From Owenia fusiformis (taxonomy: Eukaryota; Annelida; Polychaeta; Sabellida; Oweniidae), in the NCBI GenBank assembly GCA_903813345.2, contig CAIIXF020000005.1:28711375-28775374 (forward strand): DNA of 64,000 bases, read 5' to 3'. Positions within the stretch are counted from its first letter, which is position 1, and every line of letters starts with the position of its first letter. The notes beneath the pieces are model-generated. The model saw only the letters and a list, made by a program, of their open reading frames with translations, did no database searches and had not been told where the DNA came from. The position numbers were made by a program, and so were the translations under genes. Of the stretch, positions 29,301 through 54,800 are shown piece after piece.

Positions 29301-32300
29301 TGCATTGCACATCTGACACAAATCAAAATATCTTCATCTGAAAAAAGATATGAAATCACGCATGATCAAGTGCATGATTTTTGAAAGAATCTTTTAATAA
29401 TTGTGTAGGCTTAGTAATTCAACAAACTGCGGCTGTTTCTGGGAAGGAAACACTTTGCACTTGACCTTTTGAATGTTTTACTTCAGCCATTTTATTTTTA
29501 TTTATTTATTTGGAATTACACTTTTACAACAGTGGCACACTAAAATTAGGTGCATCCAGGTAAAATATCCATTAAAATGGTTACATCTTTACTTTAAAAG
29601 TTATGACTATAAATCTGTTTTAAAAAATTCTTTGACACTTTATCAAATTTACAATAAAAGTCATGTCCTCCAATCATTGCTCCATCTCCCAAAATCCAAA
29701 CAATTTTCTGTTCAATTGGTAAAGCAAAAAACAGAGTACATATATTTGGATCGATATTAGTGATTGAGTTATAAAATAGTATACGGTAATCGTTAAAATG
29801 GGGACATATTAAGAGTCTGTGTGTCATATCTTCTACGCTATTCAAGTTACAATATGTGCATTTATCATCCAGTGGATCATTACTCAGATTTCTCCATTTA
29901 CAGGTTTCAGATCTTAATTTGAATCTACCACTCCTTGCAAGGAATTTATATTTGCATCCTAGGAAGTCATTCGAGAATGTTCGAAGGTATTCCTCCTTGC
30001 CATATCTGTTCTTTAAATGTACATAGGTTTTAAGACTAGTCATATTATTAACACTGTCACTAAAATCGCTTTTCAGCTTATCAGACATATTACATTCAAA
30101 CATCTGTTTTAGATCACTAAAATCAGTATTAAAATCTAGATCATATTTGTTAAGGATTCTATAGACACTACCAATGAAATCCCAACCCATTTGCTTACCC
30201 TTCTGGGCTCTTATTTCCATGTCGTTAAGTAACCTTGCATGTAAGTTGTCTTTGTTAAGGGACTTCAGGTAAATATAGTAATTTATCATGCTCTTTTCCA
30301 ACAATGTTTCTATGGGCTTCCAGCCTAGGTCACCAAACAGGGCAACTTTGGCAGGTTTGCAATGGACATCCATTATGGCGCATCCCACATTATATTGTAT
30401 GGATGACATTTTATTAATGTGCGACTTTTTGTCTAGTAAAAGTATTCCAGACCCGTGTAAGAGTGATGGGACTACTACTGTTTTATAAAGTCTATCACCG
30501 AAAGTGATTCTATTAACATTCAAGTGCTTATTCAGAATTGATGTCACATAGCCTTTTAACTTCTTTCCCTTTGGGACTATCAAATTCATAAGATGGATAT
30601 GATCTTTTAATGATCTGTCAAATAGGACACCTAAGTATTTGTAAGCTTTTACCTCTGAAATTCTTAAGTCACCAAATGGCCACTTCTTCTCAAAATCAGT
30701 TTTTTGGCCTACAATGAGAATTTTAGACTTTTTCTCACTGAACCTGAATCCCCATTTGGTAGCAAAATCATTAGTTATTGTTAACAGACTTTTTAGTTGT
30801 TCTTCAGACTGAGCCATCAGGACTATGTCATCAGCAAACATGAGAAGTGGAATTTTCAGGTTCTCGAATGAAAGACCGAGTTGTGATTTCATAAGCTCAT
30901 CTTGCAAATCTGTCATAACAATAGAGAACAGCGTGGATGATAATACACAACCCTGCTTAACTCCAAACGATTCATCGTCATACCAATCAGATTCAATATT
31001 ATCAAAAACAACTTTATTTTTTAATCCGCTGTAGGCTTCCCTTATTAAGTTCCAGGCCTTACCACGAATACCCTTCTGCCATAATTGTACAAACATTAAA
31101 TCCCTATTCATTACATTATACGCCTTTGAGATATCAAGAAAAGCCGTAAATGTTTTGAGCCCACGGGTTTTCCTTAATCCACATAGGTGTTTTAGGGCAA
31201 ATATGTTGTTCTCGAGCCTTTTTCCATTACGGAAAGCCCCTTGAAAGTCACCATATATGTTTTCTTTTTCACATTGAATATTAAACAAATATTTCATTCT
31301 ATTTTCTGAGTCAATAGTGTGCGATAACTTTCACAAGATGACATTCTGCTTGCCCTTCCATGTGATTGGTCAAAGAAACATCGTACAAGTATTTGCCTAA
31401 ATGGAATGAAATATTTGTTTTCCTGTGAGGGAAGTACATGTATGTACTTTGAACTTGGCCTTTTTAAACGTTTTACTGCAGCCACTGATATTAAACAAAT
31501 GTCATCATATTTTCTGTGTCGAATAGTGTGTGATAACTTTCACTTTCAAGATGACATTCTACTAATATAACCCTTCAGGTGATTGGTCAAAGAAAGATGC
31601 ACAGGTATTCGCCTGAACAGAATGGAATATTTGTTGTTTTATTATATTATTCTCAAGCTCACTTCCTCTACTTATTAATGTTTAAACATTGATGAGTACA
31701 TTTTCTTAAATTTTCTATTCTTGAATAGTATGTTCTGTGTTCTTCAGGATATGCCTTTCTATATCATACCTTTATGTATTTGGTTCATCAGACCAGTAAC
31801 AAGCTGTATTGTATCTGCTAATATTTTGCCTCTGGAAATATGTAATCATTATTAATTTAACAAATACATTATTACATTACTTTTTGTAATTTGAGTAATT
31901 CATGGTTTGGTATTTGGTTATTGTTGTCTTTTGGTCTGACATGATAAATGTCCTAAAATTGTACAAATCATGATTTTTTGATATGATAAAAATAATCTTG
32001 ATAAATCATAATATTTTATTTCTTCTAAAAGGTAAAGCAAACATATAGATTATGTATATAATTGATTATTTACTTAAAGTACTTACTTTCCTATTTCATT
32101 CTGATTTATATCACACTGAACACAAGAATTTCTAAGACATCTAAAGCACTCGGCAATTCCTTGTATCACAGCGACATCTTTTGTTGCCCCATCTGAGTAA
32201 GTTTGTAGTTCAACACCAAGAAATTGGAGCAGGCCCCCTAAAGCATGAATTACGGCATTGGACATATTCTCCCTAAGAAAAAGAGAAATACACTGTGATC

Positions 32301-35300
32301 AAAATTACTGGTGACTTATTTACTCGCTAAGCAATTATTACTACCCCATCAGGAATGTTTTAGTAACCTTTGATGGTCAAATGGGGTTTCAATGAGATGA
32401 TCGCACGATTACACTTCAGGGTATGTTGGCACTCGATCGATTACCTGATACAAGGGCGGAATGTAATTATATATCTGCTTTGTATAGGCTTATTAGCCTT
32501 TTGCAGATTATTGACATACAGTTGGGGACAAAAATAAATGACAGGTCGATTTTCGATCACCATTTCCTAATTATGGTGGTCTGAAAGCCCATAATTTCCA
32601 AAATTGTCTAGATACATATCCCTTAAAATTTGTATATTTTACATTTTGTATAATCTCATCCACTGATTTATGGCCTCTTGTAAATTCTCTTATTTTTAAC
32701 ATGGGAAATCCTCACTTCAGCAAATCCACCTGTCATTTATTTATGTCCCCAACTGTAGACATGTTGAAACTGGAAATGAAAAAGTGCTCAGATTCTACCA
32801 CAGTCAGCACTATCAATGGTATATTCTAAAAATATAGGGAATATAATAGAGAAAAGTCCATAAGGCGTTTGTGACAAAATTTCCCGGAAGTGTTATATTT
32901 CCATTTATCGTTCAAACTGAGACATTTATGCTAATAATTCGACGTGTATATGATTCTTACATACCCAATACGATCAAAAATGTTACTAACATACCAAATG
33001 AAAGGTGATTTCCTGGTCAAACTTGCAAAAGTTGGTCCAAACTCGCACTTGAACCGAATATTTACCGGAAGTGTTTATATTTCCATTTGGGTGTCACTAC
33101 GGTAAATCATTGAAAAATATTGAAAAATCACAAAATTCAGGTTCTGGGATACATATCGCCATTTTCGAACGAATTAGCCCATACAAGAACTATATTTCTG
33201 CGTTCCCCTATACATGACCTTCATCTTGACCATATATATTTAACATAGGGTTTGCGTCTTGATTTTTAAATATCACTACGCCAACACAGGGACTCATTTT
33301 TAGGTAAAATCCCTGCTTCACCGATGAAAATTAACGAATAAAGTAGTTCAAGTTTACGGGACTATATTCTTGCGATTTTTTTCTAAAAATGGCACATTTA
33401 GAAAGTAATTGGCCTCAGCTTTACATACATACCTCAAATGGCCACATTGCATACACTTAAACCTACTATACACACCATTGAAGTTTCATGGCTTCGTTTT
33501 TAAAGTATTAAAAAACACTACCCGGAAGTGGTATTTACCGTAGTAACACCTTAAAGCAGATATGAAATGGTATTTTTAACCTACAGGAATCAATATAATT
33601 TTTTGATAAATGTATTTGGACATGTTTTCTCATCAGTATTGTAAAAATTATTTCACTCTAACGATCGTTATAGCTGCTTAATAAGCAATATTCGAATTGG
33701 TTGTGACGTTATTGGCCCCCACGTGATCTCTCACTGGTCCCCACGTGGCCCATAACGTCATAATGCCAAAATGTTTTGTTTTGGTTTACACTACAATCCT
33801 ATGGTTGCCGTGACGTTGTGATTACTAAGGAACCAAGAAACCAAAGCTATATTTTGTATATGACGTTACTTATCACGTGGGGGCCAATTTGATTGATCAG
33901 TTAGTTTTATTTCGTTATTTATGACCGTTAGCAGTTATCTAACATTTATTTTATAATGGCTATCGCAAGAACTCTACGTTGGGCTTACAATGTAGAAAAC
34001 CGCATTTTTGTAGCTGCAAGTTGAGAAAAGCTATTTCAGTTGTCCTTTAATATCCAAAAATGGGAAAATTTTACTATGATAATTTTTGCTCATTCAGCAT
34101 TTTTTCAAACAATTGAGTTATTTCATGCTCAAAACAGCTGCATTTTCAAACTTTTAACACATTTTCTACAAAATCTAGTCATATTTGGGGAAATAGGTGA
34201 GGGCTGAGTCTCTAAAAACTGGCCAAAATGACCTAAACTTGGGTTATCAACTTCAGAGATCTCATGCAAAAAATTTAGACGCAAAGTCCCCGAGATTATT
34301 TCATTTTGAAATCATACACAGAATGTACTGAAACGTATGTTGTTAAATGCAAATATTTTGAGTCAAATGTGGTCCCCATGTGCAAAATTTGCCCTTTTTC
34401 TCCCCCTTTACGCCAGTTAGGCCCCAGTGTACTGTGACATCATACTCATACCATTGCTACAATGTAGCAATTTACAAATTAATCATGATTACTCTTCCTG
34501 TGATACACCTGTGGTAGTTGAACACTGTTTATTCCCCAGTGTGTTGATTGATTACATGCCAGCTTACTTAGTTACTTACTAAGTACGCAATAACCACCAT
34601 CAAAGACCTGCCGGCACCTATTTATTTTCGGGTTGGTAATGGAATTTTACAAGGGCAATACGAGAAGAATTCAATTTTTCATTATTTAATGATAATTGCG
34701 GTAGATTTTACGGTAGTTTGAATAACATGACAAAATGTCACCACCTAAAACAATTTGGTCAATTTAAAGCAAGTTGGAAAATACCTTTTGACCTTAAGAA
34801 GGTTTGTTTGAACTTCTTAGAACATGTAAATGATTTTGAAAAAAAAATCGTCAATTTGAAGCAAGTTGAAAAAATACCTCTTTGACTTTTTTTGACATTG
34901 AGAAGGTCATTGAAGGTCAAATGTAAAGTCAGATTTGAACTTCTGAGAACATGTAGATGATTTTGAAAAAAAAATTAAGTAAATTTGAAGCAAGTTGAAA
35001 AAAGACCTTTTTGACCTTGAAAAGGTCATTGAAGGTCAAATGTCAAATCTAAAGTCAGATTTGAACTTCTGAGAACATGTAGATGATTTTGAAAAAAAAT
35101 TAGTCAATTTGAAGCAAGTTGAAAAAAGACTTTTTTGACCTTGAGAACGTCATTGAAGGTCAAAGGTCAAATCTAAAGTCAGATTTGAACTTCTGAGAAC
35201 TTGTAAAGTCAAATTTGAACTTCTGAAAAGATGTAGATGATTTTGAAAAAAAAATTTGGTCAATTTGAAGCAAGTTGAAAACAGACCTTTTTGACCTTTT

Positions 35301-38300
35301 TTGACCTTGAGAAGGTCATTAAAGGTCAAATGTCAAATCTAAAGATTTGAATTTCTGAGAACATGTAGATGATTTTGAAAAAAAAATTTAGTCAATTTGA
35401 AGCAAGATGAAAAAATACCTTTTTGACCTTTTTTGACATTGAGAAGGTCATTGAAGGTCAAATGTCAAATCTAAAGTCAGATTTGAATTTCTGAGAACAT
35501 GTAGATGATTTTGAAAAAAAAATTTAGTCAATTTGAAGCAAGTTGAAAAAAGACCTTTTTGACCTTTTTTGACTTTGAGAAGGTCATTGAAGGTCAAATG
35601 TCAAATCTTAAGTCAAATCTAAAGTCAGATTTGAATTCCTGAGAACACGTAGATGATTTTGAAAAAAAATTTTAGTCAATTTGAAGCAAGTTGAAAACAG
35701 ACCTTTTTGACCTTGAGAAGGTCATTGAAGGTCAAATGTCAAATCTTAAGTCAAATCTTAAGTCAGATTTGAATTTCTGAGAACACGTAGATGATTTTGA
35801 AAAAAAAATTTAGTCAATTTGAACGAAGTTGAAAACAGACCTTTTTGACCTTTTTTGACCTTGAGAAGGTCATTGAAGGTCAAATGTCAAATCTAAAGTC
35901 AGATTTGAAGGTCAAATGTCAAATCTAAAGTCAAATCTAAAGTCAGATTTGAATTTCTGAGAACATGTAGATGATTTTGAAAAAAAAATTAGTCAATGTG
36001 AAGCAAGTTGAAAAAAGACCTTTTTGACCTTGAGAAGGTCATTGAAGGTCAAATGTCAAATCTAAAGTCAGATTTGAACTTCTCAGAACATGTAGATGAT
36101 TTAGAAAAAAATTGAAGTCAGTCTAAACAGTATTTGTTAAGTTATAGGAAGTTGTAAGAAATTGTTACAGACGCCGGACGCCAACCTCCAACCACCAACC
36201 GCCGGACGCCGTCGCAAAAAAACGGAGACCATAACAATATGTCACCACTTTTGGTCAAAGGTCAAATGTCAAATCTAAAGTCAGATTTGAACTTCTGAGA
36301 ACATGTAGATGATTTTGAAAAAAAATTAGTCAATTTGAAGCAAGTTGAAAAAAGACTTTTTTGACCTTGAGAACGTCATTGAAGGTCAAAGGTCAAATCT
36401 AAAGTCAGATTTGAACTTCTGAGAACTTGTAAAGTCAAATTTGAACTTCTGAAAAGATGTAGATGATTTTGAAAAAAAAATTTGGTCAATTTGAAGCAAG
36501 TTGAAAACAGACCTTTTTGACCTTTTTTGACCTTGAGAAGGTCATTAAAGGTCAAATGTCAAATCTAAAGATTTGAATTTCTGAGAACATGTAGATGATT
36601 TTGAAAAAAAAATTTAGTCAATTTGAAGCAAGATGAAAAAATACCTTTTTGACCTTTTTTGACATTGAGAAGGTCATTGAAGGTCAAATGTCAAATCTAA
36701 AGTCAGATTTGAATTTCTGAGAACATGTAGATGATTTTGAAAAAAAAATTTAGTCAATTTGAAGCAAGTTGAAAAAAGACCTTTTTGACCTTTTTTGACT
36801 TTGAGAAGGTCATTGAAGGTCAAATGTCAAATCTTAAGTCAAATCTAAAGTCAGATTTGAATTCCTGAGAACACGTAGATGATTTTGAAAAAAAATTTTA
36901 GTCAATTTGAAGCAAGTTGAAAACAGACCTTTTTGACCTTGAGAAGGTCATTGAAGGTCAAATGTCAAATCTTAAGTCAAATCTTAAGTCAGATTTGAAT
37001 TTCTGAGAACACGTAGATGATTTTGAAAAAAAAATTTAGTCAATTTGAACGAAGTTGAAAACAGACCTTTTTGACCTTTTTTGACCTTGAGAAGGTCATT
37101 GAAGGTCAAATGTCAAATCTAAAGTCAGATTTGAAGGTCAAATGTCAAATCTAAAGTCAAATCTAAAGTCAGATTTGAATTTCTGAGAACATGTAGATGA
37201 TTTTGAAAAAAAATTTAGTCAATGTGAAGCAAGTTGAAAAAAGACCTTTTTGACCTTGAGAAGGTCATTGAAGGTCAAATGTCAAATCTAAAGTCAGATT
37301 TGAACTTCTCAGAACATGTAGATGATTTAGAAAAAAATTGAAGTCAGTCTAAACAGTATTTGTTAAGTTATAGGAAGTTGTAAGAAATTGTTACAGACGC
37401 CGGACGCCAACCTCCAACCACCAACCGCCGGACGCCGTCGCAAAAAAACGGAGACCATAACAATATGTCACCACTTTTGGTCAAAGGTCAAATGTCAAAT
37501 CTAAAGTCAGATTTGAACTTCTGAGAACATGTAGATGATTTTGAAAAAAAATTAGTCAATTTGAAGCAAGTTGAAAAAAGACTTTTTTGACCTTGAGAAC
37601 GTCATTGAAGGTCAAAGGTCAAATCTAAAGTCAGATTTGAACTTCTGAGAACTTGTAAAGTCAAATTTGAACTTCTGAAAAGATGTAGATGATTTTGAAA
37701 AAAAAATTTGGTCAATTTGAAGCAAGTTGAAAACAGACCTTTTTGACCTTTTTTGACCTTGAGAAGGTCATTAAAGGTCAAATGTCAAATCTAAAGATTT
37801 GAATTTCTGAGAACATGTAGATGATTTTGAAAAAAAAATTTAGTCAATTTGAAGCAAGATGAAAAAATACCTTTTTGACCTTTTTTGACATTGAGAAGGT
37901 CATTGAAGGTCAAATGTCAAATCTAAAGTCAGATTTGAATTTCTGAGAACATGTAGATGATTTTGAAAAAAAAATTTAGTCAATTTGAAGCAAGTTGAAA
38001 AAAGACCTTTTTGACCTTTTTTGACTTTGAGAAGGTCATTGAAGGTCAAATGTCAAATCTTAAGTCAAATCTAAAGTCAGATTTGAATTCCTGAGAACAC
38101 GTAGATGATTTTGAAAAAAATTTTTAGTCAATTTGAAGCAAGTTGAAAACAGACCTTTTTGACCTTGAGAAGGTCATTGAAGGTCAAATGTCAAATCTTA
38201 AGTCAAATCTTAAGTCAGATTTGAATTTCTGAGAACACGTAGATGATTTTGAAAAAAAAATTTAGTCAATTTGAACGAAGTTGAAAACAGACCTTTTTGA

Positions 38301-41300
38301 CCTTTTTTGACCTTGAGAAGGTCATTGAAGGTCAAATGTCAAATCTAAAGTCAGATTTGAAGGTCAAATGTCAAATCTAAAGTCAAATCTAAAGTCAGAT
38401 TTGAATTTCTGAGAACATGTAGATGATTTTGAAAAAAAATTTAGTCAATGTGAAGCAAGTTGAAAAAAGACCTTTTTGACCTTGAGAAGGTCATTGAAGG
38501 TCAAATGTCAAATCTAAAGTCAGATTTGAACTTCTCAGAACATGTAGATGATTTAGAAAAAAATTGAAGTCAGTCTAAACAGTATTTGTTAAGTTATAGG
38601 AAGTTGTAAGAAATTGTTACAGACGCCGGACGCCAACCTCCAACCACCAACCGCCGGACGCCGTCGCAAAAAAACGGAGACCATAACAATATGTCACCAC
38701 TTTTGGTCAAAGGTCAAATGTCAAATCTAAAGTCAGATTTGAACTTCTGAGAACATGTAGATGATTTTGAAAAAAAATTAGTCAATTTGAAGCAAGTTGA
38801 AAAAAGACTTTTTTGACCTTGAGAACGTCATTGAAGGTCAAAGGTCAAATCTAAAGTCAGATTTGAACTTCTGAGAACTTGTAAAGTCAAATTTGAACTT
38901 CTGAAAAGATGTAGATGATTTTGAAAAAAAAATTTGGTCAATTTGAAGCAAGTTGAAAACAGACCTTTTTGACCTTTTTTGACCTTGAGAAGGTCATTAA
39001 AGGTCAAATGTCAAATCTAAAGATTTGAATTTCTGAGAACATGTAGATGATTTTGAAAAAAAAATTTAGTCAATTTGAAGCAAGATGAAAAAATACCTTT
39101 TTGACCTTTTTTGACATTGAGAAGGTCATTGAAGGTCAAATGTCAAATCTAAAGTCAGATTTGAATTTCTGAGAACATGTAGATGATTTTGAAAAAAAAA
39201 TTTAGTCAATTTGAAGCAAGTTGAAAAAAGACCTTTTTGACCTTTTTTGACTTTGAGAAGGTCATTGAAGGTCAAATGTCAAATCTTAAGTCAAATCTAA
39301 AGTCAGATTTGAATTCCTGAGAACACGTAGATGATTTTGAAAAAAAATTTTAGTCAATTTGAAGCAAGTTGAAAACAGACCTTTTTGACCTTGAGAAGGT
39401 CATTGAAGGTCAAATGTCAAATCTTAAGTCAAATCTTAAGTCAGATTTGAATTTCTGAGAACACGTAGATGATTTTGAAAAAAAAATTTAGTCAATTTGA
39501 ACGAAGTTGAAAACAGACCTTTTTGACCTTTTTTGACCTTGAGAAGGTCATTGAAGGTCAAATGTCAAATCTAAAGTCAGATTTGAAGGTCAAATGTCAA
39601 ATCTAAAGTCAAATCTAAAGTCAGATTTGAATTTCTGAGAACATGTAGATGATTTTGAAAAAAAATTTAGTCAATGTGAAGCAAGTTGAAAAAAGACCTT
39701 TTTGACCTTGAGAAGGTCATTGAAGGTCAAATGTCAAATCTAAAGTCAGATTTGAACTTCTCAGAACATGTAGATGATTTAGAAAAAAATTGAAGTCAGT
39801 CTAAACAGTATTTGTTAAGTTATAGGAAGTTGTAAGAAATTGTTACAGACGCCGGACGCCAACCTCCAACCACCAACCGCCGGACGCCGTCGCAAAAAAA
39901 CGGAGACCATAACAATATGTCACCACTTTTGGTGGTGACATAACAAGAATACTGTTAATTCAAGCAGAAATATGGTAGATTTTCAAATATTTACGGTATA
40001 TTTTACGGCCGTTCTTATAGAAAAAATCTAATTATAATAAAATATTTTATGGTAGATTTTGGTAAAATTACAGTAGATTTTGTCGGTTGTTTTACAAGAA
40101 AAAACAGTAATTTTTTACGGTATTTATATTATTTTTTATGGTAGATGCCGGTAAAAATACGGTAGGTTGGCAGGTATGAGTTACCATTGCAACCGTGGAA
40201 ATGGGTAAAAATGAGAGCAAAAAACACCCAGACCCGCCATAATGGCACTAATTTTCAAAATATTTCGAGACATACACATTTTCTTAAACTTTGATATCGT
40301 CTAGAACACTTCTAGACAACAAAAATATCAAAAATGGGGGGAAGGCAGGGTCGGATCTGAGAACCAACAAGGAGGGGGGGGGCCAAATTTCAGGTCAGAA
40401 AAAAATTTGGGGCCCCTGAAACCAAAAAGTGGGCCCAAATTTTGAGGCCCATTTTCTTCAAAATTTGGCCTGAAATTAAAAAATAAGGCCTTAAAAGGCC
40501 CAGTTATGACCAAAAAGGCCCACTATTTGGGGCCTTAAGGCCTTTTTGGCCCAAAAAATTTTTGAGCCCAATTTTTTTTTCTGGGCCCACCCAAGGGGGG
40601 GGGGGGGCGGGCCCCCAGCCCCCCCCCCCCTCCTAATCCGCCAGTGGAAGGTTTAACACTTCAATTATTTTCAAGCCTTGGTCAAAGTAAAACTACGAAA
40701 AAAGCACTCATTTTCACTTTAGAATCACCTATTATCGCCCAAATGGCTATATGTTGTCAAGGTCGCCATGTTAAAAGTAGAATTAGAATGCTCTTCAGAC
40801 AATGTTTGATAGCTTTCCTTTATCACGGAACAAAGACCTTTGCACTGGTATGCCCATTTCCATGAGATAATGCACGTGAAAGAGGAACAGTGTCTTTAAA
40901 TGTCATCAAAACTTTTTCTCACTACTTTTGGTGTAATAATACCATCTGATTGATTGTTGGTGTAAACAACGAGTCGGGTTAATCTGCACGAGGTTCGGTT
41001 TTTCATTAAGGGAAGTACTTTATTCCCATGATTCAAAGTGCTTTTCTGCCATTGGTTCGGTTTAAGTTTGTACAACAAACGTCCACGAATCCAGGGCAGG
41101 TTGACATTATATCATTACATTTGTTTTGGGTGTATAGTTTTTGTTTTGACAATAAACAAAAAAAATCCCGCAATATATGGTGCATCATGGGTAGGACACG
41201 CTGTGAAATATGAACGTAAGTGACATCTATGTTAAATTAAATGTTCCTACAAAGTTATTAATCGCGCATGCGTCATGATAACTTAAACCAATCAAGGAGG

Positions 41301-43189
41301 ATTGGAAGCCAGGGTTCCAACTCGATATTCTTTAATCTCCACGCATGCGTCATTTGCTATTCGTGTCTGTATAATTTGTACGACTGCATGGAGAATGACC
41401 CGATACTCTCCAACAAAGCTATCGCTAGGTGATTGTTTTGCAGAATATCGGTGTTGCATTCTGGGAGCCAATCCTCCTTGTAAAGCAATCAGATTACTGG
41501 GTTTAATGCGCACGCGCCATAAACCGAATACTTTCCCGGGATTCGGGCTTTAGGATACGATTTTACACTGACCGATTGCAAACGAGATTTAGCGAGATGA
41601 AGCGGTTGTGAAACCAAGATGGCAGAAAGTTTGTGAACTTCTAGTATTATTATATCTTACGGTAGAGTATACCATTGATAGTGCTGACTTTGTCTGACCC
41701 ATATTCTCCATGCTGTATTACCCAGGATGCATCTCTGAGAAGAGGAGATTTGGATAGAGATTTAAACGAGATTTAGCGAGATGACGCGTTTGTGATACTT
41801 TTGTTGAAGAATGAGCACATTTGAACTGATTTCTACGATCTCAACGTAATTTGAGGTACGGACTTTCATTTTTAATAACACCTTGGTGTCTTATGGACCT
41901 CCGTCACTAAAAATAATAGGGAAACACTTGTGTAGAAACGTCGAATTCTTAGTCTGAAAAGTAGGGTGTCTGTAATTTTATAGAAAAATTGCCAAAATCT
42001 TATGAACTTTTAGCTCTTACTACCACTACTTACCACACATACTATCTATTGCAAGACTTACGCCTGGCGTAACCGTCACCATGTTATTCAGTGTTTTTAA
42101 GTAGCGCAAGGATCCTGCCATGACCGTGGTAGTGTTATCGTGTAAGCCTGGTTTAACCGTGACAACGCTGTATTATATTGCAAGGCCTGTCATGGCCGTG
42201 GTAATGTTAAAGCCTGATATAACTTTGACAATGGTTGCAAAGCCTGTCATGACCGTGATAATGTTAAGGCCTCTTATAACCGTGACAATGCTTGCAAGGC
42301 CTACCATGACCGTGGTAATGTTAAAGCCTGATATGACCGTCATAATGATTGCAAAGCCTGTCATGACCGTGGTAAGGTTAAAGCCTGAACTGGACAATAG
42401 TTGCGAGGCCTCTCATGACCGTGGTTGTATTAAGTAACATTTAAAGTAGCATGAGAACACTGTAATGACAATTTTCCTCGTGTTTAACTACCTTAAATAT
42501 GTAAATCGAGACTACTATACATGAACATGGTACTCATGTTCATTGATACATAAAAATGTATATTAATTTCACAACGAAACCCTCATTTTTAACTCAGTCA
42601 TAAATAATTTTCGAACAAACTACATCTCTACTCTCATTCAAGAAGGTTCGATTCGAAAGCACATACTTTCTATAATGATCAATTAATAAGGTTAATCCAT
42701 GAAAAAACTAATAGCAGCAACGGGAGAAACATGAAATAAGTCATAAATGTCATATAAAGCGGCTACGGTCGCGCCAGGCTTACACGATTACATTGTCACG
42801 GTCATGGCAGGCATTGCAATATAATACAGCGTTGTCGCGGTTATACCAGGCTTTCACGATAACACTACCACGGTCATGGCAGGATCCTTGCGCTACTTAA
42901 AAACACTGAATAACATAATGACGGTTACGCCAGGCGTAAGTCTTGCAACAGATAGGGTCTCACTACTTACCATTGAGAGTGCTGACTTTGGATTCTACAT
43001 ACAGAAAAATTCATAGGTGGATATATTATATAATTACCTCTGTGATTGATGTTTCAAAGAATCAGAAAGTAGCTTCAGTATCTCATGTACATTATTTGCA
43101 GTATATGTGTTGCCATACTTGCTATTAACACATAGAAAACCCAAAATTTCTGAGATAGATTTCTCAACATTTGTGTCGACGTTCGCCAT
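24246..43189 (-). CDS. ATXN10: Ataxin-10, complete, 11 exons
   Basis: Exons, 5' to 3': 43038-43189, 32087-32272, 31770-31831, 29223-29337, 28672-28836, 28161-28238, 27422-27578, 26753-26861, 26198-26367, 24982-25045, 24246-24436. They total 1449 nt, 482 codons plus TGA, with all phases consistent; vertebrate ataxin-10 is about 475 residues. Exon 2 carries the family signature ECFRCLRNSCVQCDINQNE. The protein is an armadillo/HEAT-type alpha-helical repeat protein, cytoplasmic and centrosome-associated, linked to neurite outgrowth and cytokinesis in vertebrates. ATG 43189 is the first Met of the frame. Exon 7 uses an unusual GTTTGT donor. A variant ATTAAA signal lies at 24211-24216, about 30 nt past the stop. 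Intron 1 (10.8 kb) and intron 3 host large insertions. Confidence 0.94.
24492..24620. repeat. Small palindromic repeat, ATXN10 last intron
   Basis: GCAAGACTGTG pairs with CACAGTCCTGATGC; an inner stem GTGTACTTCAC/GTGAAGTACAC is perfect. Confidence 0.5.
26403..26555. mobile_element. MITE, CAGTAAAACCTGT termini
   Basis: CAGTAAAACCTGT at the left and ACAGGTTTTACTG at the right, exact inverses, 153 bp in total. In ATXN10 intron 8. Confidence 0.65.
27608..27743. mobile_element. Palindromic MITE, CAGGTGTTAT termini
   Basis: Left CAGGTGTTATATCGAC, right GTCGACATAACACCTG. The arms extend through ATACATACC and GGCTAGGCACAAA. In ATXN10 intron 6, 29 bp upstream of exon 7. Confidence 0.7.
29594..31297 (-). 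mobile_element. LINE reverse transcriptase ORF, 567 codons, 5'-truncated
   Basis: An uninterrupted 567-codon ORF inside ATXN10 intron 3, same strand as the gene. It starts inside the reverse transcriptase domain. Motif A is FTAFLDISKAYN with the catalytic Asp at residue 55; SFGVKQGCVLS follows; motif C is FADD at 154-157, then WGFRFSEKKSKI. A C-terminal zinc knuckle (C480, C483, H493, C498/H500) is present. The N-terminal reverse transcriptase part and endonuclease are missing. The 3' tail, read on the minus strand, is an AAAT-type repeat (about 29490-29515). This identifies a non-LTR retrotransposon with a CR1/Jockey/I-like arrangement; the clade is not resolved. Lack of internal stops suggests a fairly recent insertion. 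Confidence 0.88.
31280..31645. repeat. Tandem ~180-bp duplication at LINE 5' side
   Basis: Two diverged direct copies (about 31280-31420 and 31487-31640) share AATATTAAACAAAT, GATAACTTTCA, AGATGACATTCT and TGATTGGTCAAAGAAA. A related stretch including GTTTTACTTCAGCC at 29455-29490 flanks the 3' side of the LINE and resembles 31427-31488 here. The flanks may be a long, decayed target duplication or an older host repeat. Confidence 0.6.
32517..32757. mobile_element. MITE, ACAGTTGGGGACA termini
   Basis: Left ACAGTTGGGGACAAAAATAA, right TTATTTATGTCCCCAACTGT, about 29 bp of inverse match. Mariner/Tc1-like in appearance (inference). Confidence 0.7.
33091..33550. mobile_element. MITE, GTGT(C/T)ACTACGGTAAAT termini
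   Basis: Left GTGTCACTACGGTAAAT and right ATTTACCGTAGTAACAC are inverse with one mismatch. CGGAAGTG motifs lie at 32885, 33067 and 33522. Confidence 0.55.
34733..39943 (+). mobile_element. Giant rolling-circle-like (pearl/HINE-type) element with four 1226-bp units
   Basis: The left end carries AAAATGTCACCACC (about 34733-34746). The right end carries ACAATAT, then the hairpin GTCACCAC-loop-GTGGTGAC (39917-39940). Between them four copies of a 1226-bp unit run from about 35032 to 39936; the marker ACGCCGGACG recurs at 36171, 37397, 38623 and 39849, spaced exactly 1226. Each unit has about seven diverged ~150-200-bp subrepeats built on AAGGTCA, GATGATTTTGAAAAAA and TTTGAAGCAAGTTGAAAA, and ends in a GC-rich linker. 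No ORF. The plan (5' motif inverted in a 3' hairpin, tandem core) matches non-autonomous Helitron2/Helentron elements such as bivalve pearl/CvE. Class assignment is inference. Confidence 0.82.
35032..39936 (+). repeat. Higher-order tandem array, 4 x 1226 bp
   Basis: Copies at about 35032-36257, 36258-37483, 37484-38709 and 38710-39936 differ only by rare single-base changes, mostly in A runs (for example near 37217 and 38111). Such homogeneity implies very recent amplification, gene conversion, or assembly duplication. Confidence 0.9.
40345..40648. mobile_element. GGCGGAT-type MITE, G/C homopolymer-rich
   Basis: The right end CTAATCCGCCAGTGG is the inverse of the CCACTGGCGGAT end seen at 19579. 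The interior is TTTGAGGCCCATTTTCTTCA and repeated AAGGCC. Long G and C runs flank the ends. Confidence 0.6.
41294..41479. repeat. Small foldback repeat
   Basis: AAGGAGGATTGGAAGCC pairs with GGGAGCCAATCCTCCTT; AACTCGATATTCT pairs with AGAATATCGGTGTT. Confidence 0.55.
42044..42954. repeat. Foldback element with ~57-bp minisatellite
   Basis: Arms 42044-42190 and about 42800-42954 are inverse (TCTATTGCAAGACTTACGCC against GGCGTAAGTCTTGCAACAGA). Copies of CATGACCGTGGTAATGTTAA at 42191, 42248, 42305 and 42362 are spaced 57 bp. Because 57 is divisible by 3, long open frames appear on both strands, but they look like repeat artefacts. Confidence 0.7.
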
Positions 43190-45811: not shown

Positions 45812-48800
45812 ATGCCTAAAAGGCGCAGGGCATCCGTGACGTCTGAAAAGAGTGAAGCATCTGAAGTGTCTCCTGTAGTCCAGAAGAGAAGAAAGCAATC
45901 AGCACATACGGATCCTGTAAGTTTCTAGAAAGCTTATAAAATATATAATCTAGTACATGTAGTGAAACTTGTATTTCTTAACATAACTCTTGTCAATGCG
46001 AACACTTTTTCTCAGTCCCAGTTTTGTTCCCTCCCATTGACTCACATATTAGAAAAAGCTTGAAATGTGAACACCTGCCTACATGAGCACTTTTAGCCAG
46101 TCTCATTGGGTTTTGATGTGACAGGTTTGGTGTAGTCTATACAGTGTACTTCCATTTATGGTGTCAAAAAGTTACAATGGAAATTCCATGTCCACTGAGA
46201 TAACAACTTTCAGTTATATACTGTAACTAGGGTCAGAACAGTAACATGTATCCAAATCTTTCATTTATTTGTTGAACCATGGACAACGACTTACAAAAAC
46301 CACACAAACCAAACCAGATACAACATGAATTACAATATATAATGGTCCAAAAGTTTCAGAAAATGTTTTAAGAATATGTGTTGTAGAAAAATACATTCAC
46401 CAACCCATAGTGTTAGAACATGTCGAATGTACAAACAATGATCCTGCATTATTTGGATACCATCATGATTGGAAGACGCAGACAGTGATTCAATTACAGT
46501 ACACATTTGATAACAAAATGAATGTTTGACCATTGTTATTGCAGGTTGAAATATGCCAGGAGCTTTACGACTATGTTCGTAATTACAAAACTGAAGATGG
46601 CCATCTCCTTTGCGAGGCTTTTGTAAGGGTCCCTAAAAGAAGGTAAGTGATTTATTTGTCAAAACTCATTCTCAATTATAAAACAATTTTTTTCAAAACA
46701 TCTCATTTCTCAATTGTATTCACATTTATTTGTTTGATTGCCTTTTTTAATACACATCTAAAAAGGTTGAGATACTTAAAAAGAAAAAATTGCACACAAT
46801 ATTGGTAAAATTATATGATTCGGTTGTAAGTATCAACATTAACATGGGTCAAGTTCCGTTTAAAGAACACATGTATATTTGTACTTTCAGGACCGCACCA
46901 GAGTATAACAACATTGTATCTCAGCCTATTGATCTACTTAAGATACAACAAAAACTGAAAACTGATGAATATGAGGATGTCGATGCATTTACAGATGACA
47001 TCTTACTCATGATTAGAAATGCAAAGGTGTATTACAAAGTAAGTCAATAGTATATTTTTTGATACATGTGGAGTATTATTACTTGCCAAGCTATTTTATA
47101 TCACATATATTCAGTTGTTCTGGTCTATATTTGAGGCCACATAGTTTTTCAGTCTGGGAATTCCTTTCACTATAATATTAAGTAAGATCACAATAATTTT
47201 ACTATTACTGTCATTAAAACAACCAATTAACATATTTACCGAGAGAAATATCTGACCACCAATTGCAATTTTTTTTCCAGAAAAACTCACCAGAGTATAA
47301 AGATGCTGTTGAGTTGTGGGATCTGTATGTGCAAATGCGTGATGAGCTGATGGATGACCCCTTTGATGATGGTACGGAAGGAGAACCTGAGGTGGGCCAC
47401 AGAGGTCGTAAATCTCAGTCGGTTGATAGAGATCATGAAGAAGAATCCAAGGTAGGTATTAGCATGTTAGAGATCTTTCGAAAGTCCATGGTATTTGGAA
47501 TGATATTTTTGAACCATTGACTCAAGATCTGTTCTGCTTAAATCCATAACTGATATAAACTTTTCAAATAAAGTTTATTTAGTATTCAAACATGACCGTG
47601 CTCTATTCGAATTTCTCAAGCAATCAGAATGCAGCATAGCCAATATAGAACGTTCTCTAATTCTCCATAGATGCACGACCATGCTCTATTAATATTGAAT
47701 CTGCAATTTGCATTGTTTTGAGTGACGTCACATCTCAGCTGCACATCTGGGGCTCTGTCCGGGGATAGCTGTTCTTTTTTACTCCCTCCGTAACTACTGT
47801 AACTATTTAACACCCCATGTTTGCATTTACCGTATAAAATCTAAAACGGGGAGTAAAATAGAACAGCCCAAACAAATTCTAAATTTTTCCGGCCGACTTC
47901 AGAATCTTGACAGCATGCGTATTCTTCCTTCATGCCCGTTCCACAGACACGGCTTTTACTAATTTTTATGTTTGAATCGAATAAATAATGATAGGCCATT
48001 CAATATGGTGAAATTCAGCACTCCTTGGACAGAATGTTAGTACAAATGCACTCACCTTCGGTTCGTGCTTTGTACAACATTCTGTCCAACTCGTGCTGAA
48101 TTTCACCATATTGAATGGCCTATCATTATTTATTCCTTAAACAAATTACACCATTTGGCTTGCATTGGTAGTGATCAGTGGTCCAAAGCAGGGTGAACTG
48201 ACTGGAGTCAGTCACATTCAAAATTTGTTTGATTCGGATAAACTCTTGATTCCAGCTAAACCAAGTAAAATCTGGATTTCAAATATTTTGCAATGCAAAC
48301 TAATAAAAATCCTATTGTAAACAACCATAAAGAAATCCTCAAGTATTATAAACCAAAAATAAAAACCCTATTATATTCATATATTTAATACTTAAGATAA
48401 TAACATTTAATTTTTGTCTTTCTATTTTAGGGTAGTGAACCATCTAGCCGAGCAAGTAGCGTAACACGTGGTGGCAGCGTGCCTAGGTCTGGCAGTGTGC
48501 CAAGAACTGCTCAAACACCTGGGACTATTGATGAAGACATTGAAAACAAACTAGAGTTGTTATTTGCCGCTGTTATAACTGCTAAAGAGGGTGACAGAGA
48601 GATCAGCGAAGTTTTTCAGCTTCTACCTTCTAAAACTGTAAGGCTTGAAATCAATCTCAAATCTTAACTAGACAGTATTTATATACACTTTTTGATATTC
48701 AATTTTTAAGAAATATGGTTGAATATGAGCGAGTATACACGTAATTTACACTTGATCACTCCTAGATAAAAATAATGATATTGTGTCAAAGTAATGAATT

Positions 48801-51800
48801 TCAGTGATAGCTACAGCTCATATTTGAATATATTTATGAGAACAAAGAACAAAGCCTTGTCATCATTCTTGTTATTTTATGACATCATAACTAAAGGCTT
48901 TTACATTGTATTGCAGAAGTTTGCAGAGTACTATGAATCTATCACAGAGCCCATAGATTTGAAACAGATTGCCATGAAGATACAAGATGGATCATACACA
49001 TCTCTACATGACATGGAGAAAGATTTACTTCTTATGGTGAAGAATGCAAAATATTTTAATGAACCCGGATCCCAAATATACAAGGTATAACTGAAATTTT
49101 ATCAATATGTAAACTTTATTGAGATGACTATATATAACTGTGGCTGTGCAAGACCATTATGAGACAACTGCTGAATTTAAGATATAGAATTGAATTTGAT
49201 TAAGAAATTGATAATGAAAGAGGCTAAAACCTCACATATTATGTCACCACCACAATTTTTCCATTTTCTTATTTTTCTGGTGGCAGTTGGTAATTGGCAT
49301 TCAGCATCTGTAACAAATGGCAGGTAGTGACATTTTGCATATTAATGCCTTGTTTATCTTACAAGCAAGGGTTATAATGAATGGTTACCAACTCTATCTC
49401 ATCAACTTTATAACTTTAGGACGCTGTTACATTGAGGAAATTGATAACAGCAAAGAGAATTGAGCTTGAGAACATGAAGCACAACCCTCACAAGACCAGT
49501 GAAAGAATAAGGTAAGAAGATAAGGTTACATATCTGTCTGCTTAAATGTTCGTTTCATGCTATTTCTCCTTAAAATTTGAATGAACTGAATAATGCGTTG
49601 TTGTTTTTAAACAATTTACAGTGTAACCTATTATTTCGTATAGATCTTTCAGTCCGTGTAAATTTTACGTATAAAACTGTATTATGCACATGAAAAGTGA
49701 TTATTTTTATGTGCATAAATTTAGGTCACTTAATCTGTCCTCTGCGCTGCATTATCCTATAATGTATGTATGCTTATACATTTATTAAGGTCAAAGAGGC
49801 ATGCAGCTACTCACAAGCTATCTTCAGTTTGTGCTGCACTATCCTATGGGTCTGAGGATGAGACAGAGCTTGAACAGAGTGACTACAACAGTGCACATGA
49901 TACAACAAGCCAGATAGACTATGATGATGACTCTGGTTTGTGATCTTAGTTACTTTTATTTTATTTTGTGACCAATAGCCATTTTTTTATTTGCTGACTT
50001 ATTTTTTATTCCTTAGTCCTCAGATGCTCATTTGGCCTAATATCAATGTAGTGGTTTCTGGACCTGAATAGCATTCAGTGTATCAATATAGCTTCAATAT
50101 TGTCCACAGTAAAAACTTATTAAAAATGGCTAGACACCTTGAATGAGATGATTTAACTACAACTATGATCTTGCATCACTACTTGATTGATTAATTGACT
50201 GATTATTGGTTTATTGATTGCTTTGTGTTTTCAGGAACAGAAGGGTCAACGATGACAATGGATACAGATGAGAACATTTACTGGGCTCTGTACAACACTG
50301 TACATAATCACAAAAACTCACTCGGACAGATTCTCTCTGATCCATTCCTGAAACTCCCAAGTAGAAGGTTTGTCTGTTCCCTCCTAATTTTCCACTTATT
50401 CCACTTTTTAGAGATGAATCCCTGAAGTGCCTTTGCAACTGTAGTCTGTGTTCAATATTTGAATGTGTTCCTGTTGTCTCTAAAGTTGATTCATATTGTT
50501 GTCGTGGCAACACAACATTTGTGATTGGTTGATTCATGAAACATTCTTGATTGCTACCTTGGTTCGATTGAACTTTGATTGTATTTTCTGTTTTCTGAGT
50601 GAATTATATTGCCATTACATAATGTTTAACTGTTCAACTAGTTTCATATTTGAAGTTTATAGATTGGTTGATAAGTATTGTTTTATTTGTTGCAGATTTT
50701 ATCCAACATACTATGAGGAGATTGCAGAGCCATTGTCTCTGTTGCAGATCAGGAGAAAAGTTAAGGTAATAAAGATTTAAAGTAAAAGGAACGCCCACTA
50801 CTCTACAAAGTAAATGTAATACATATTTTTGTACAGCATACAATGCTCTCAGTATTTTAATCGTACTTATAATACATTGTTTTTTCTTGTCCTGCTGGAA
50901 GTCCAAGAGGCTGGTTGTCTAGCTCTTAACCTTCTACATGCAATGAAAATGTCTTTTGAAAATGGGGCAATGTGACACATTTTGCAGAAAGTAATCCTGT
51001 AATAGTTTTAACATTTTTGAAAACTTTGTCACAATTATCAGCATTATCGTGTATGTTTTCCAGCACAACAAATACACGAGCATTAGTGTGTTGGCTCAGG
51101 ATCTGAACTTGGTCTTTGAAAATGCAAAGAAGTACAATGACAGTGACAGTAGGCTGTATAAGGTAATATAGACATGGTTGAAATATGTTTCAATTCAAAT
51201 TTTCCCCAGTCCCCATAACTTTGATAATATAAGAATGACTTTAATGTATTTTGTGCTGAATTTATTAATGGTAAATATGTATTGATTCAACTAAAAGTAG
51301 AAATCTGAAAACTGAACAATTTAAAGAATAAATAATGAGGCTGCGCTTTGCAGTGAACTCTATAAGACATTTTCAGAAGAATACCAATTGGGAGAAAATG
51401 CTTGGTCACAAAGTGTTTGGCAAAACTGTGTGCTTACTTTATACATGTACATATGTTTATTTTCAATTATATCTCTCCACCACAAGTGGTCTGTAGCAAA
51501 TGGCAGGTGGTCACATTTTACCTTGTTTTTAATTTCACTAGGATGCAGTTCGCCTTCAGAATGCCATGCGGGCGAAGTACCAGGAGTTGGAAAAGTATGA
51601 GTCGCGTCAGTTAGCCCAGTTCACTGTAAGTATTCACTCAGCATCACATTAATATTGATTAGGTGAATAACAGTTTTGTTTTTCAACACACTTTTTAGTT
51701 TCTTGAATAAGGGTGTGATTTTTGAACTCAGCACTTGTTTATACTCATGTTAATTCAAATGGTGTAAGTTTCTAAATAGTTATAGGATATTCCACACTGC

Positions 51801-54800
51801 TGGTACTTCTATTGCAATGCCTTGTACATGTTTATCTGTCACTTTATAATCCTTCACGCACGTCGCACAATGATCAGACTTGATAGTTTTCCATTTCTAT
51901 CAGGTTTGATTGTTTGATTGGAGGTGAAATGGATTATGAGGATTTTATGGTGGCAGATTATTCAAAAAAATTCATGAGTTAAAACATGTTACTGTGTGTT
52001 GTAAGGACAGAATTACTAACACATTTTGTATAAGATACAACTGAAATTATTTAAATTTGAATTTCCTTATCCAGATTGGTTGTTGGATTTTTAGTTTTTT
52101 TTATATCTATATAGCCCATTTTTTATCTCAAATATTCACTCACTTTATGATACCCCCCCCCCCCCCCTGGCAAAAAATGTCTTTCAAAATCATGCAGTTT
52201 TCACCATTCTCACTATTTTTTGAGTGATTTTTGGCCAAATTTGGCAAAGTGAACCCCCGTAGAATTTTTGGGAAAAGTGAACCCCCTTGGAAAATGCTGG
52301 CTACGGGCCTGATATCTCTTGGCCTACTTTATTTCTGACTCGTATGACATGACACCTGATAAGCCCTACACACAAGTCTTTATCACTGTCATATAAATAA
52401 GTTCATGTGATTTTAGTAATTGAATAAATAAAGCCAAACCTGTTCAAGAATCTCAAAATTTTTCAGGAATGAATGGAAAGTGACAATAAAGATATCAATC
52501 AAGATATTTCAATTACATTATTGACAAACCTAATCTATTATACATACATTTGTCAAGAAAAATGCACTTTTTATTTTGAAACACACCAAATTCACTCCAC
52601 TGCATTTGCTAGAATATTCACTGAACTATTATTTGTTGTCAATAGGCACAAACTGCTTGGTGCTCTATTTGAAATTGATGTTAACATAAAGGAGTTGAAT
52701 ACAAGTTGAAACTCTCTCTTTGCCCCCTTTAGCACAAATATTTAAAAATCTATTTGAAGAATAATTTGGGAGAAACTTTTATTAAGTTAGGGAAACTTTT
52801 TTGTTATTGTTATTAAGTTTAGTAACATGGGAAGAGGAAAATAAAACAACTTAGTAAGAATAATTTTGGAGAAACTTTTGTGTTATTAAGTTTAGTAACA
52901 TGGGAAGAGAAAAATAAAACAACTTAGTAAGAATGATTTTGGAGAAACTTTTGTGTTATTAAGTTTAGTAACATGGGAAGAGAAAAATAAAAAAACTTAG
53001 TAAGAATGATTTTGGAGTAACTTTTTCTTTTCATTTTTTCATAAAGTTTTGGAACCTGAGATTTTTTGGGGTTTGAAGAGCTTAATACATTATCCAAAAC
53101 AAAACACCTTATGGATTTAATATAGTGTCTTTCTAGCTCTGATTGCCCTCTCATCACAAGTATAACTTATACTTCACTTAAAGTGTCCTTCTGTAAGATC
53201 ACAGAGCTCACACTTTACTATACATTTGCTAGGAAACTCTGGAGGAAGACCCCTTACCTCCATTATCATATCTTATGAACCCTATGGTAGTGCTCAGGGT
53301 AAGTCTAGATGTTTGTGATGCTGCTAGTAGGTCTTTTCTCAGGGGGCTATTTCATTGGCTATTTTTAAAGTGGATCAGCCAATCTAAATCTAAAAGATGT
53401 TTTTATACAAGTTGACATCTTAGATCAAACCATGGGCAAAGTCAAATTACATTACATGTAGTTTGCCCCAATGGGACTAAGCTATTCTGTAAATGTATAA
53501 TTTATAAATGGTCTCTAATGAAAAATCTGAATTAAAGTAAGAGGAAGATTGGCTGGTCCTCATCTGTTAGTTACAGTACATGTATGTTGTAACTTAAAAA
53601 ATCTACTTCTACAGGGTGTTCAATGGAGCAGACTTATTTAACACTCTGTGCTGTACATTGCAGATTGAAGGCAGGCTTATTTATCACTTTAGGAGCCTTC
53701 AATTTTAGAGTCTCTTCACTCAGGATAACAATGCGCTTAAAATGTCACTCTGGTTTGGTTTGTTCCACACAAATTCCCTCCAAAATGATACTAGACTGCA
53801 TATTTTTCAGACATTTCTCTATCTCTATAATCTGTAGGTGTAAAGTCCATGTAACTTATTCAATGTTGATTTCATTTGTTTTTACAAATAGCTTCACCAT
53901 ATTGGCATTTTACTTTCAAGTTAGAAGTATCCTGAAGATCCTCGGAACGCAGACTCCAAACATCATCTGAGTTCCTTTCTCTTTCTTCAGAGAAGAAGGG
54001 ACTTAGAGGATGACTGGAGGTCAATATTATTTTCTTAGTGCTTCGTTCTCGCATTGTGCCCCATTCTTCTAAGTTCATCCATTCAATGGGAGATTATGTT
54101 TTAGTAGTGTATGTATTTTATGAAAACATTTTTTTGATTATATATACTATTTTAATTTGATATGTAATGTGTAAAAGTAGTGAACCAGCATTATTTATAT
54201 CAGTTTCACATTTCATATACTTTTGCATGTCCTGACTTTTTAGACCAAAACTGGATTGTATGTTCACTGTAGTAATGTCACTTTGAAGAAAGTTTTTTAT
54301 TTCATCTTAAATGATTACTTTCTTGAAATTTTATTTGTTTATAATGGCATAAGCAAACTCTAAAAAACTAAAAATCAACCTTTTCATCTAGGTATCCATG
54401 GTGATACATAAACATTAGGAGAAAATTAGTGTATGAAATACAATTCCTTAGACACCATATAAAGCCCTGAGGGGAAATGAGACTCCCAGGAAATTTTATT
54501 GAACATCTTTTAGTATTCTCAATATTTGTGGTTATTTAACAATGCATGTTGTTGGTTATGCTTATTAATATTATGCCATAATATCTCAACAGATCTTCAT
54601 ATTGCTTCATATCACTATATGACAAAAGATCATGTTTAAACAATTAAATCAATGTCTTTAAACTGTTGGTGTTGTTAGAAACATTGCACAAACTTATTTT
54701 ACAAGAGATTTCGTAATTTAAATATGTAGAACATGTTTTCAGATGTTTGGGATTGTTTAGAATCCAGTCTTACACACGTTCTCTGCTTTCTGTAGCAATT

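Follow-up and report, generated by a model that had tools for sequence, protein, structure and literature searches.

Tandem arrays of truncated Helitrons are known from plants, and the source study on them is reportedly that of Xiong et al. 2016. Such arrays carry several 5′ ends and one 3′ end, and rolling-circle copying of a circle without the 3′ end has been proposed for them (PMC12628747, PMC5148889; statements on published systems refer here to excerpts of the cited papers). Helentrons, their central repeats and the tandemised parts at "shuffled" oyster loci are likewise already known (PMC12628747). The present report concerns a tandem array at positions 34723–39943 of a 64,000-nucleotide stretch of DNA from the polychaete Owenia fusiformis (NCBI GenBank assembly GCA_903813345.2, contig CAIIXF020000005.1, positions 28,711,375 to 28,775,374 of the forward strand), hereafter the window. 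The array is formed by a short element without genes that is organised like a HINE (non-autonomous Helentron), and its units are connected by joints at which a broken terminal hairpin runs directly into the core of the element. The same class of joint occurs at 14 loci of the genome, each with its own joint.

Cg_HINE of Crassostrea gigas resembles the window element in having a subterminal inverted repeat (subTIR) with an inverted copy close by, a microsatellite, tandem repeats in the centre and a 3′ subTIR with a palindromic sequence, as well as in insertion at T-rich sites without target-site duplication; the arrays described for it consist of short monomers within a single element, and a joint duplication of 5′ end and core is not among them (PMC7492417). 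At the "shuffled" Helitron/satellite loci of the same species, Helitron/Helentron parts are truncated or tandemised with satellite-like repeats, but the excerpt names no preferred breakpoint in a 5′ hairpin (PMC12628747). The plant arrays agree with the window array in their head-to-tail arrangement and in combining several 5′ modules with a single 3′ end, whereas they comprise several to several hundred units, compared with mostly two in the stretches fetched here, and the inner 5′ ends here are mostly broken within the hairpin formed by the subTIR and its inverted repeat (IR) (PMC12628747). The FoHeli elements of Fusarium with multiple 5′ termini share doubled 5′ modules and a single 3′ end, and are the closest match to the 48-bp modules described below; in them, whole short 5′ stretches (e.g. 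31–85 bp) are repeated and common to copies (PMC5148889), whereas the repeated stretches here span ~170–1226 bp, start within the hairpin and have joints that are private to their loci. DINE-1 and HINE-Mo share the subTIRs, the 3′ palindrome and TT insertion, and missed termination is raised by the authors for clustered copies, but hairpin-to-core joints are not described in the excerpt (PMC4067079). Recurrent breaks within a 5′ subTIR hairpin joined to core were not found among the titles and abstract openings of the open-access papers searched.

Architecture of the array

The array is a single insertion within another dispersed repeat, and its features are as follows, the minus strand being the 5′ to 3′ direction of the element.

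34723–39943, minus strand: entire tandemised HINE-like element, delimited by element-free host-repeat sites reading TTTGAA|CAAG (4 of 4 fetched copies)
34723–35028, minus strand: 3′-end module with core monomers, occurring once in the array (unit comparison and annotation)
34728–34740, minus strand: palindrome TGACA-AAA-TGTCA near the 3′ end of the element (sequence; folding z −0.25)
34735–34745, minus strand: 3′ subTIR of 11 bp, with the same plus-strand letters as the left arm of the hairpin and therefore the inverse of the 5′ subTIR ATGTCACCACC (sequence; left end conserved in other copies)
35029–36254, minus strand: unit 1, consisting of core monomers, unique stretch, GC-rich microsatellite, linker and half hairpin
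36239–36262, minus strand: joint 1, half hairpin ATGTCACCACTTTTGG running into core TCAAAGG; joints 2 and 3 follow at +1226 and +2452
36255–37480, minus strand: unit 2, identical to unit 4
37481–38706, minus strand: unit 3, with 1 difference from units 2 and 4
38707–39932, minus strand: unit 4, followed by the remainder of the complete hairpin
39848–39893, minus strand: microsatellite-like, GC-rich sequence in the last unit, with GTCC-like units when read on the minus strand (sequence)
39917–39941, minus strand: complete 5′ subTIR (39932–39941), loop (39927–39931) and inverted copy (39917–39926) (sequence and DNA folding)

An earlier note on this stretch had described four units of 1226 bp, three joints of half hairpin and core, and a complete hairpin only at the end of the last unit, so that the repeat would join a broken hairpin to the core, head to tail. 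The comparison of units and joints confirms this description and places the complete hairpin at 39917–39941. The units end at 36254, 37480, 38706 and 39932 (copy number as assembled). The single difference of unit 3 is a substitution. Unit 1 has 3–4 differences from the other units, two of them within its first three bases, where there is no joint. The three joints, at 36254/36255, 37480/37481 and 38706/38707, are identical; owing to the microhomology GGT, a break position one base further on (TTTTGGT|CAAAG) is just as valid. In the window TTGGTCAAAGG occurs only at 36251, 37477 and 38703, and GTGGTGAC has a single match in the array, at 39932, with one further window match far off, at 10742. 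The array comprises 4 terminal modules, 3 of them broken, and one left (3′) end. Tandem periods of 124, 136 and 148 bp are present in the element. As single-stranded DNA, the complete end folds with −11.4 kcal/mol (z −5.04; none of 200 shuffles folds as well), whereas the half-hairpin joint folds no better than chance (z 0.24, 112 of 200 shuffles as good).

Element class and insertion site

Read on the minus strand, the element begins with a T-rich start, followed by the subTIR ATGTCACCACC, a short loop, the inverted copy, a linker, a GC-rich microsatellite of GTCC-like units, the unique stretch, the core monomers, the 3′ subTIR and the palindrome. This order matches the component order of HINEs in PMC7492417 and fits the layout in PMC4067079, and by its sequence the window element thus has the layout of a HINE lying in reverse. 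The hairpin that the earlier note had taken for a 3′ terminator is consequently the 5′ end: in the published layout it corresponds to the 5′ subTIR and its inverted copy beside the microsatellite (PMC7492417). The description of the element as rolling-circle-like is supported by the same layout. HINEs are recognised by a 5′ subTIR of 11–15 bp with a nearby complementary inverted repeat (PMC7492417); such a pair is present at 39917–39941, with minus-strand arms of 10–11 bp and a loop of 5 nt. The microsatellite beside the 5′ end and the central tandem repeats are present as in HINEs, and the 3′ subTIR is the inverse of the 5′ one. A palindromic sequence lies near the 3′ end as well, but it folds no more stably than its shuffles. 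Among 18 other copies examined (20 fetched as L005–L024; L009 and L024 skipped), the same left end is found in 12, each time preceded by ACAAGGCATTAACATGACAAA on the plus strand; the window copy is without the outermost ACAAGGCAT that other copies carry.

Complete hairpins of this type number 4756 in the 498-Mb genome with up to 3 mismatches. The genome also contains 58 Helitron_like_N matches, 23 of them in open frames longer than 3000 aa, which are possibly candidate young autonomous Helentrons. These long frames often lie outside the 12 large contigs (C13, C515, C505 and others).

The joined flanks of the array were used as a query, which gave at least 40 matches, with 40 of 262 candidates scored. 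The four fetched copies of the host repeat without the element read TTTGAA|CAAGAATACTG, and the right boundary of the array, ~39943, was set from these copies. The comparison of one locus with 4 element-free sites shows that the insertion falls within AA/TT, as in the T-rich or TT insertion of HINEs without detectable target-site duplication; a 2-bp target duplication is indistinguishable from the terminal bases of the element itself, and there is no target duplication beyond AA.

Two other classes were considered and rejected. In a canonical Helitron1, a 5′ TC, a 3′ CTRR after the hairpin and insertion between A and T are given (PMC5148889); the ends at 34723 and 39943 do not match these motifs, and the insertion lies within AA/TT. 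The occurrence of GTCACCAC/GTGGTGAC at both ends led to consideration of a terminal inverted repeat (TIR) transposon or miniature inverted-repeat transposable element, which was dropped because in other copies the left repeat lies subterminally, the right end has both arms and there is no target duplication beyond AA. A further GTCACCAC...GTGGTGAC hairpin with a 5-nt gap lies at 10729–10749 of the window and is probably a second copy of the end of this family.

Hairpin-to-core joints elsewhere in the genome

The earlier note had proposed a genome search for further joints of half hairpin and core. The exact joint is confined to the window: with up to 3 mismatches, the 26-mer spanning it has 3 matches in the genome, all in the window array. 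The class of joint recurs, however. An exact pattern anchored in the hairpin, with one of two core motifs following within ~60 bp, gave 7 matches with the first motif, of which 3 were discarded as the left end of another subfamily (CACCACCTAG...), and 10 matches at 7 loci with the second, i.e. 17 matches, 14 of which were retained at 11 loci. A pattern anchored in the linker gave 6 matches at 5 loci, 3 of them new. The resulting 14 loci, where the 5′ end runs into core, are a lower bound, as the patterns are exact and detect only joints near one of the two core motifs. They comprise the window, C2 (14.86 Mb and 14.93 Mb), C3 (8.04 Mb and 25.4 Mb), C4, C6, C8, C9, C10, C11 (10.9, 15.5 and 29.2 Mb) and C12. 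The 13 loci outside the window were fetched. The C8 locus (L080) has an additional type of joint, in which the loop is connected to a point shortly ahead of the unique stretch; this brings the total to 15 joints. Neither the search with the window joint nor the pattern searches matched any joint at a second locus. The hairpin is broken inside at 10 of the 14 loci, lost at its first base at one (L101), and complete or nearly complete at three (L076, L077, L081). The suggestion in the earlier note of recombination in the hairpin fits this recurrent pattern.

Microhomology at the joints, judged by eye at 11 loci against the hairpin and the upstream unit of the same locus, is mostly 0–3 bp. One to a few extra bases are present at some joints (L074, L083), and the joint of L077 falls within a shared run of A.

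Half hairpins reading GGT|not-G have 44 matches in the genome, 3 of which are those of the window. Of the other 41 sites, 38 at 36 loci were fetched, the remaining ones being on C11 (37.1 Mb), C12 and C343. A loose script classified the 38 as arm-like (31), unrelated (5) or core (2), and by eye L040, L048 and L064 look unrelated too. By sequence these sites are mostly mutated hairpins, with a few truncated against other DNA and two core joints. At L040, L041, L048, L055, L058, L059, L061 and L064 the element halts in the hairpin loop and is followed by apparently unrelated DNA (three of these by eye only). Small duplications at L031, L047 and L054 also end in the same loop.

A simple rolling-circle concatemer, in which a 3′ end is joined to a 5′ end, was considered and rejected as mostly neighbouring insertions. 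At 7 joints of 6 loci (L065–L070), an exact pattern detected a complete left end no more than 30 bp after a complete right end. At L066–L070 the two sides appear by annotation to be different copies or fragments, and these joints are probably neighbouring insertions at the A/T-rich end. At L065 the two unit tails are 99.2% alike, and the same 7-bp spacer also precedes a third, different unit; this pair may be explained by unequal exchange between neighbours, and it may also be of rolling-circle origin. The last ~48 bp of the element, i.e. the linker and the complete hairpin, are themselves tandem at many copies, e.g. L071 (299–469), L073 and L101; joints of these 48-bp modules number 162 genome-wide by exact pattern, with up to 4 modules in L071.

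Relatedness and number of units

Second units were compared at 11 loci (L101–L103 left out) with their own locus and with the loci fetched by that stage, and at 8 of the 11 the second unit is closer to its own locus than to the best other fetched copy. For the four second units longer than 600 bp, the identity is 98.4–100% within the locus and 95.2–96.4% to the best other copy. In a tree of unit tails the units of the window cluster (83/84), as do those of L078 (98/92); the signal of this tree is small and mixed, with 40 of 58 inner branches open.

In the fetched stretches, 11 of the 14 loci have two units, and the left end was reached at four of these 11 (L075, L078, L079 and L102). At L075, L078 and L102 the two units lie between one left end and one complete hairpin; no complete hairpin is visible in the fetched stretch of L079. 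At the window and three other loci with both ends reached, a single 3′ end and a single complete 5′ end thus flank two or more units. L101 carries a minimum of four terminal modules with three joints of one kind and units of 632, 1091 and 1025 bp, and is taken as an older stage of an array. L080 has five terminal modules. A range of expansion stages is visible across loci.

Origin of the array

The probable, though far from assured, origin of the array is in our view a tandem duplication that began at the 5′ hairpin, with unequal exchange as the next step. A HINE-like element would have inserted once into another repeat, and its inner part would have been tandemly duplicated. The duplicated part is bounded on one side within the terminal 5′ subTIR/IR hairpin and on the other at an arbitrary position among the core monomers. 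The hairpin, extruded or single-stranded, would break or cause the polymerase to dissociate; the free end (...CACCACTTTTGGT) would be rejoined to the core, or would re-prime in it, with minimal homology or none, and two units would result. Through unequal exchange or a similar process, near-identical units could then increase from two to four. The duplication step is taken to occur during or after insertion and not in a transposing concatemer. The anatomy of the window copy, its clean outer ends, its joint and the 14 loci with the same joint class are direct observations, and the presence of one 3′ end and one complete 5′ hairpin with host DNA directly outside both is what tandem duplication predicts. 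Duplication within one element likewise predicts the higher own-locus identity of the second units longer than 600 bp. The small extent of microhomology favours end joining or template switching over homologous exchange for the first step.

Several observations weigh against this account. The second unit is closer to another copy than to its own locus at 3 of 11 loci (93.4 versus 95.1% at L075, 91.8 versus 93.7% at L080 and 95.6 versus 97.4% at L081), and the unit-tail tree pairs the second unit of L083 with that of L103 (96/89) and not with its own first unit. Unit counts are minima at the 8 loci with unreached left ends (L074, L076, L077, L081, L082, L083, L101 and L103), and rolling-circle copying would easily produce the four or more units of L101 and the five modules of L080. 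At the 3 of 14 joints with a complete or nearly complete hairpin, self-insertion or end joining fits equally well. The breakpoints are spread over the whole hairpin; 8 of 15 joints (positions by eye) lie in the interval that starts where the left arm ends and reaches two bases into the right arm, a bunching near the loop that is not significant (p 0.058). The earlier note had held that joints unrelated to the hairpin would contradict its reading, and a limited search for such joints speaks in favour of the account. It combined one core motif with one control anchor, placed within the unique stretch at ~75 bp from the hairpin (as measured in the window unit), and gave 0 matches, compared with 10 distinct loci for the hairpin and linker anchors with this motif (P ~0.017 under equal shares). 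The control is, however, a single anchor with a single motif. It is present in 72 of 82 fetched units and the other two anchors in 70 and 71, frequencies that favour the control anchor because the units were chosen by the unique stretch itself.

The earlier note had proposed read-through or mis-termination at a 3′ hairpin during rolling-circle replication, which is weakened by the identification of the hairpin as the 5′ end, with the 3′ end at 34723–34745: such an event should join a 3′ end to a 5′ end, whereas none of the three joints contains a 3′ end. What survives of the proposal is aberrant rolling-circle replication of a circle that had lost its 3′ end by joining of core and 5′ hairpin. 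Copying round this circle would yield a concatemer in which many 5′ modules accompany a single 3′ end, and this concatemer would then be inserted. We consider this unlikely, albeit deserving of serious weight, since the make-up of several 5′ modules and one 3′ end is that of the plant arrays (PMC12628747, PMC5148889), the window units are nearly identical with identical joints, and L101 and L080 have several modules; against it stand the two units at most loci in the fetched stretches, the lack of a match of any joint at a second locus in these searches and the position of the joint away from the element terminus at 11 of 14 loci.

Insertion of one copy into the T-rich core of another, with later transposition from the outer 5′ end to the inner 3′ end to give a composite, has been put forward for the Fusarium Helitrons with several 5′ termini (PMC5148889). 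It would account for the complete-hairpin joints of L076 and L081, for units that are not clearly mutual closest relatives (L075, L080, L081, L083/L103) and, better than for the window array, for the 162 joints of doubled 48-bp modules. As the origin of the array it is improbable: different copies of this length differ by ~4–5%, compared with 0–4 of 1226 positions between window units, and the inner 5′ end is broken or lost at 11 of 14 loci. Multiplication of repeat units during assembly merits hardly any credence. Units 2 and 4 are identical and the copy number is as assembled, but units 1 and 3 have private differences, and the same joint class occurs at 13 other loci with differing joints and divergences.

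Other features of the window

A reverse transcriptase frame (RVT_1, 6.3e-25) at 29597–31330 on the minus strand is a retrotransposon fragment. Bromodomain matches lie on the plus strand at 46751–47047 and 48779–49087, and are possibly exons of a polybromo-type gene. Other tandem arrays are located at 12147–12981 (162 bp × 5.2), 42178–42425 (57 bp × 4.4) and 52808–53025 (73 bp × 3.0).

Implications for satellite formation

The start of satellite arrays from transposons has mostly been inferred from finished arrays. Two-unit and four-unit stages with different joints within one genome make the starting breakpoint directly readable and allow rolling-circle copying to be tested against in-place duplication. 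A more tentative idea, which we hold to be doubtful at present, is that the 5′ subTIR/IR hairpin of this HINE family may act as an intrinsic fragile site from which tandem duplications of the adjoining satellite-like core arise repeatedly, such that the element's own terminus would drive the birth of higher-order satellites, via in-place breakage or as a rolling-circle by-product. The recurrence of the joint at other copies suggests one way for jumping DNA to start a satellite-like array.

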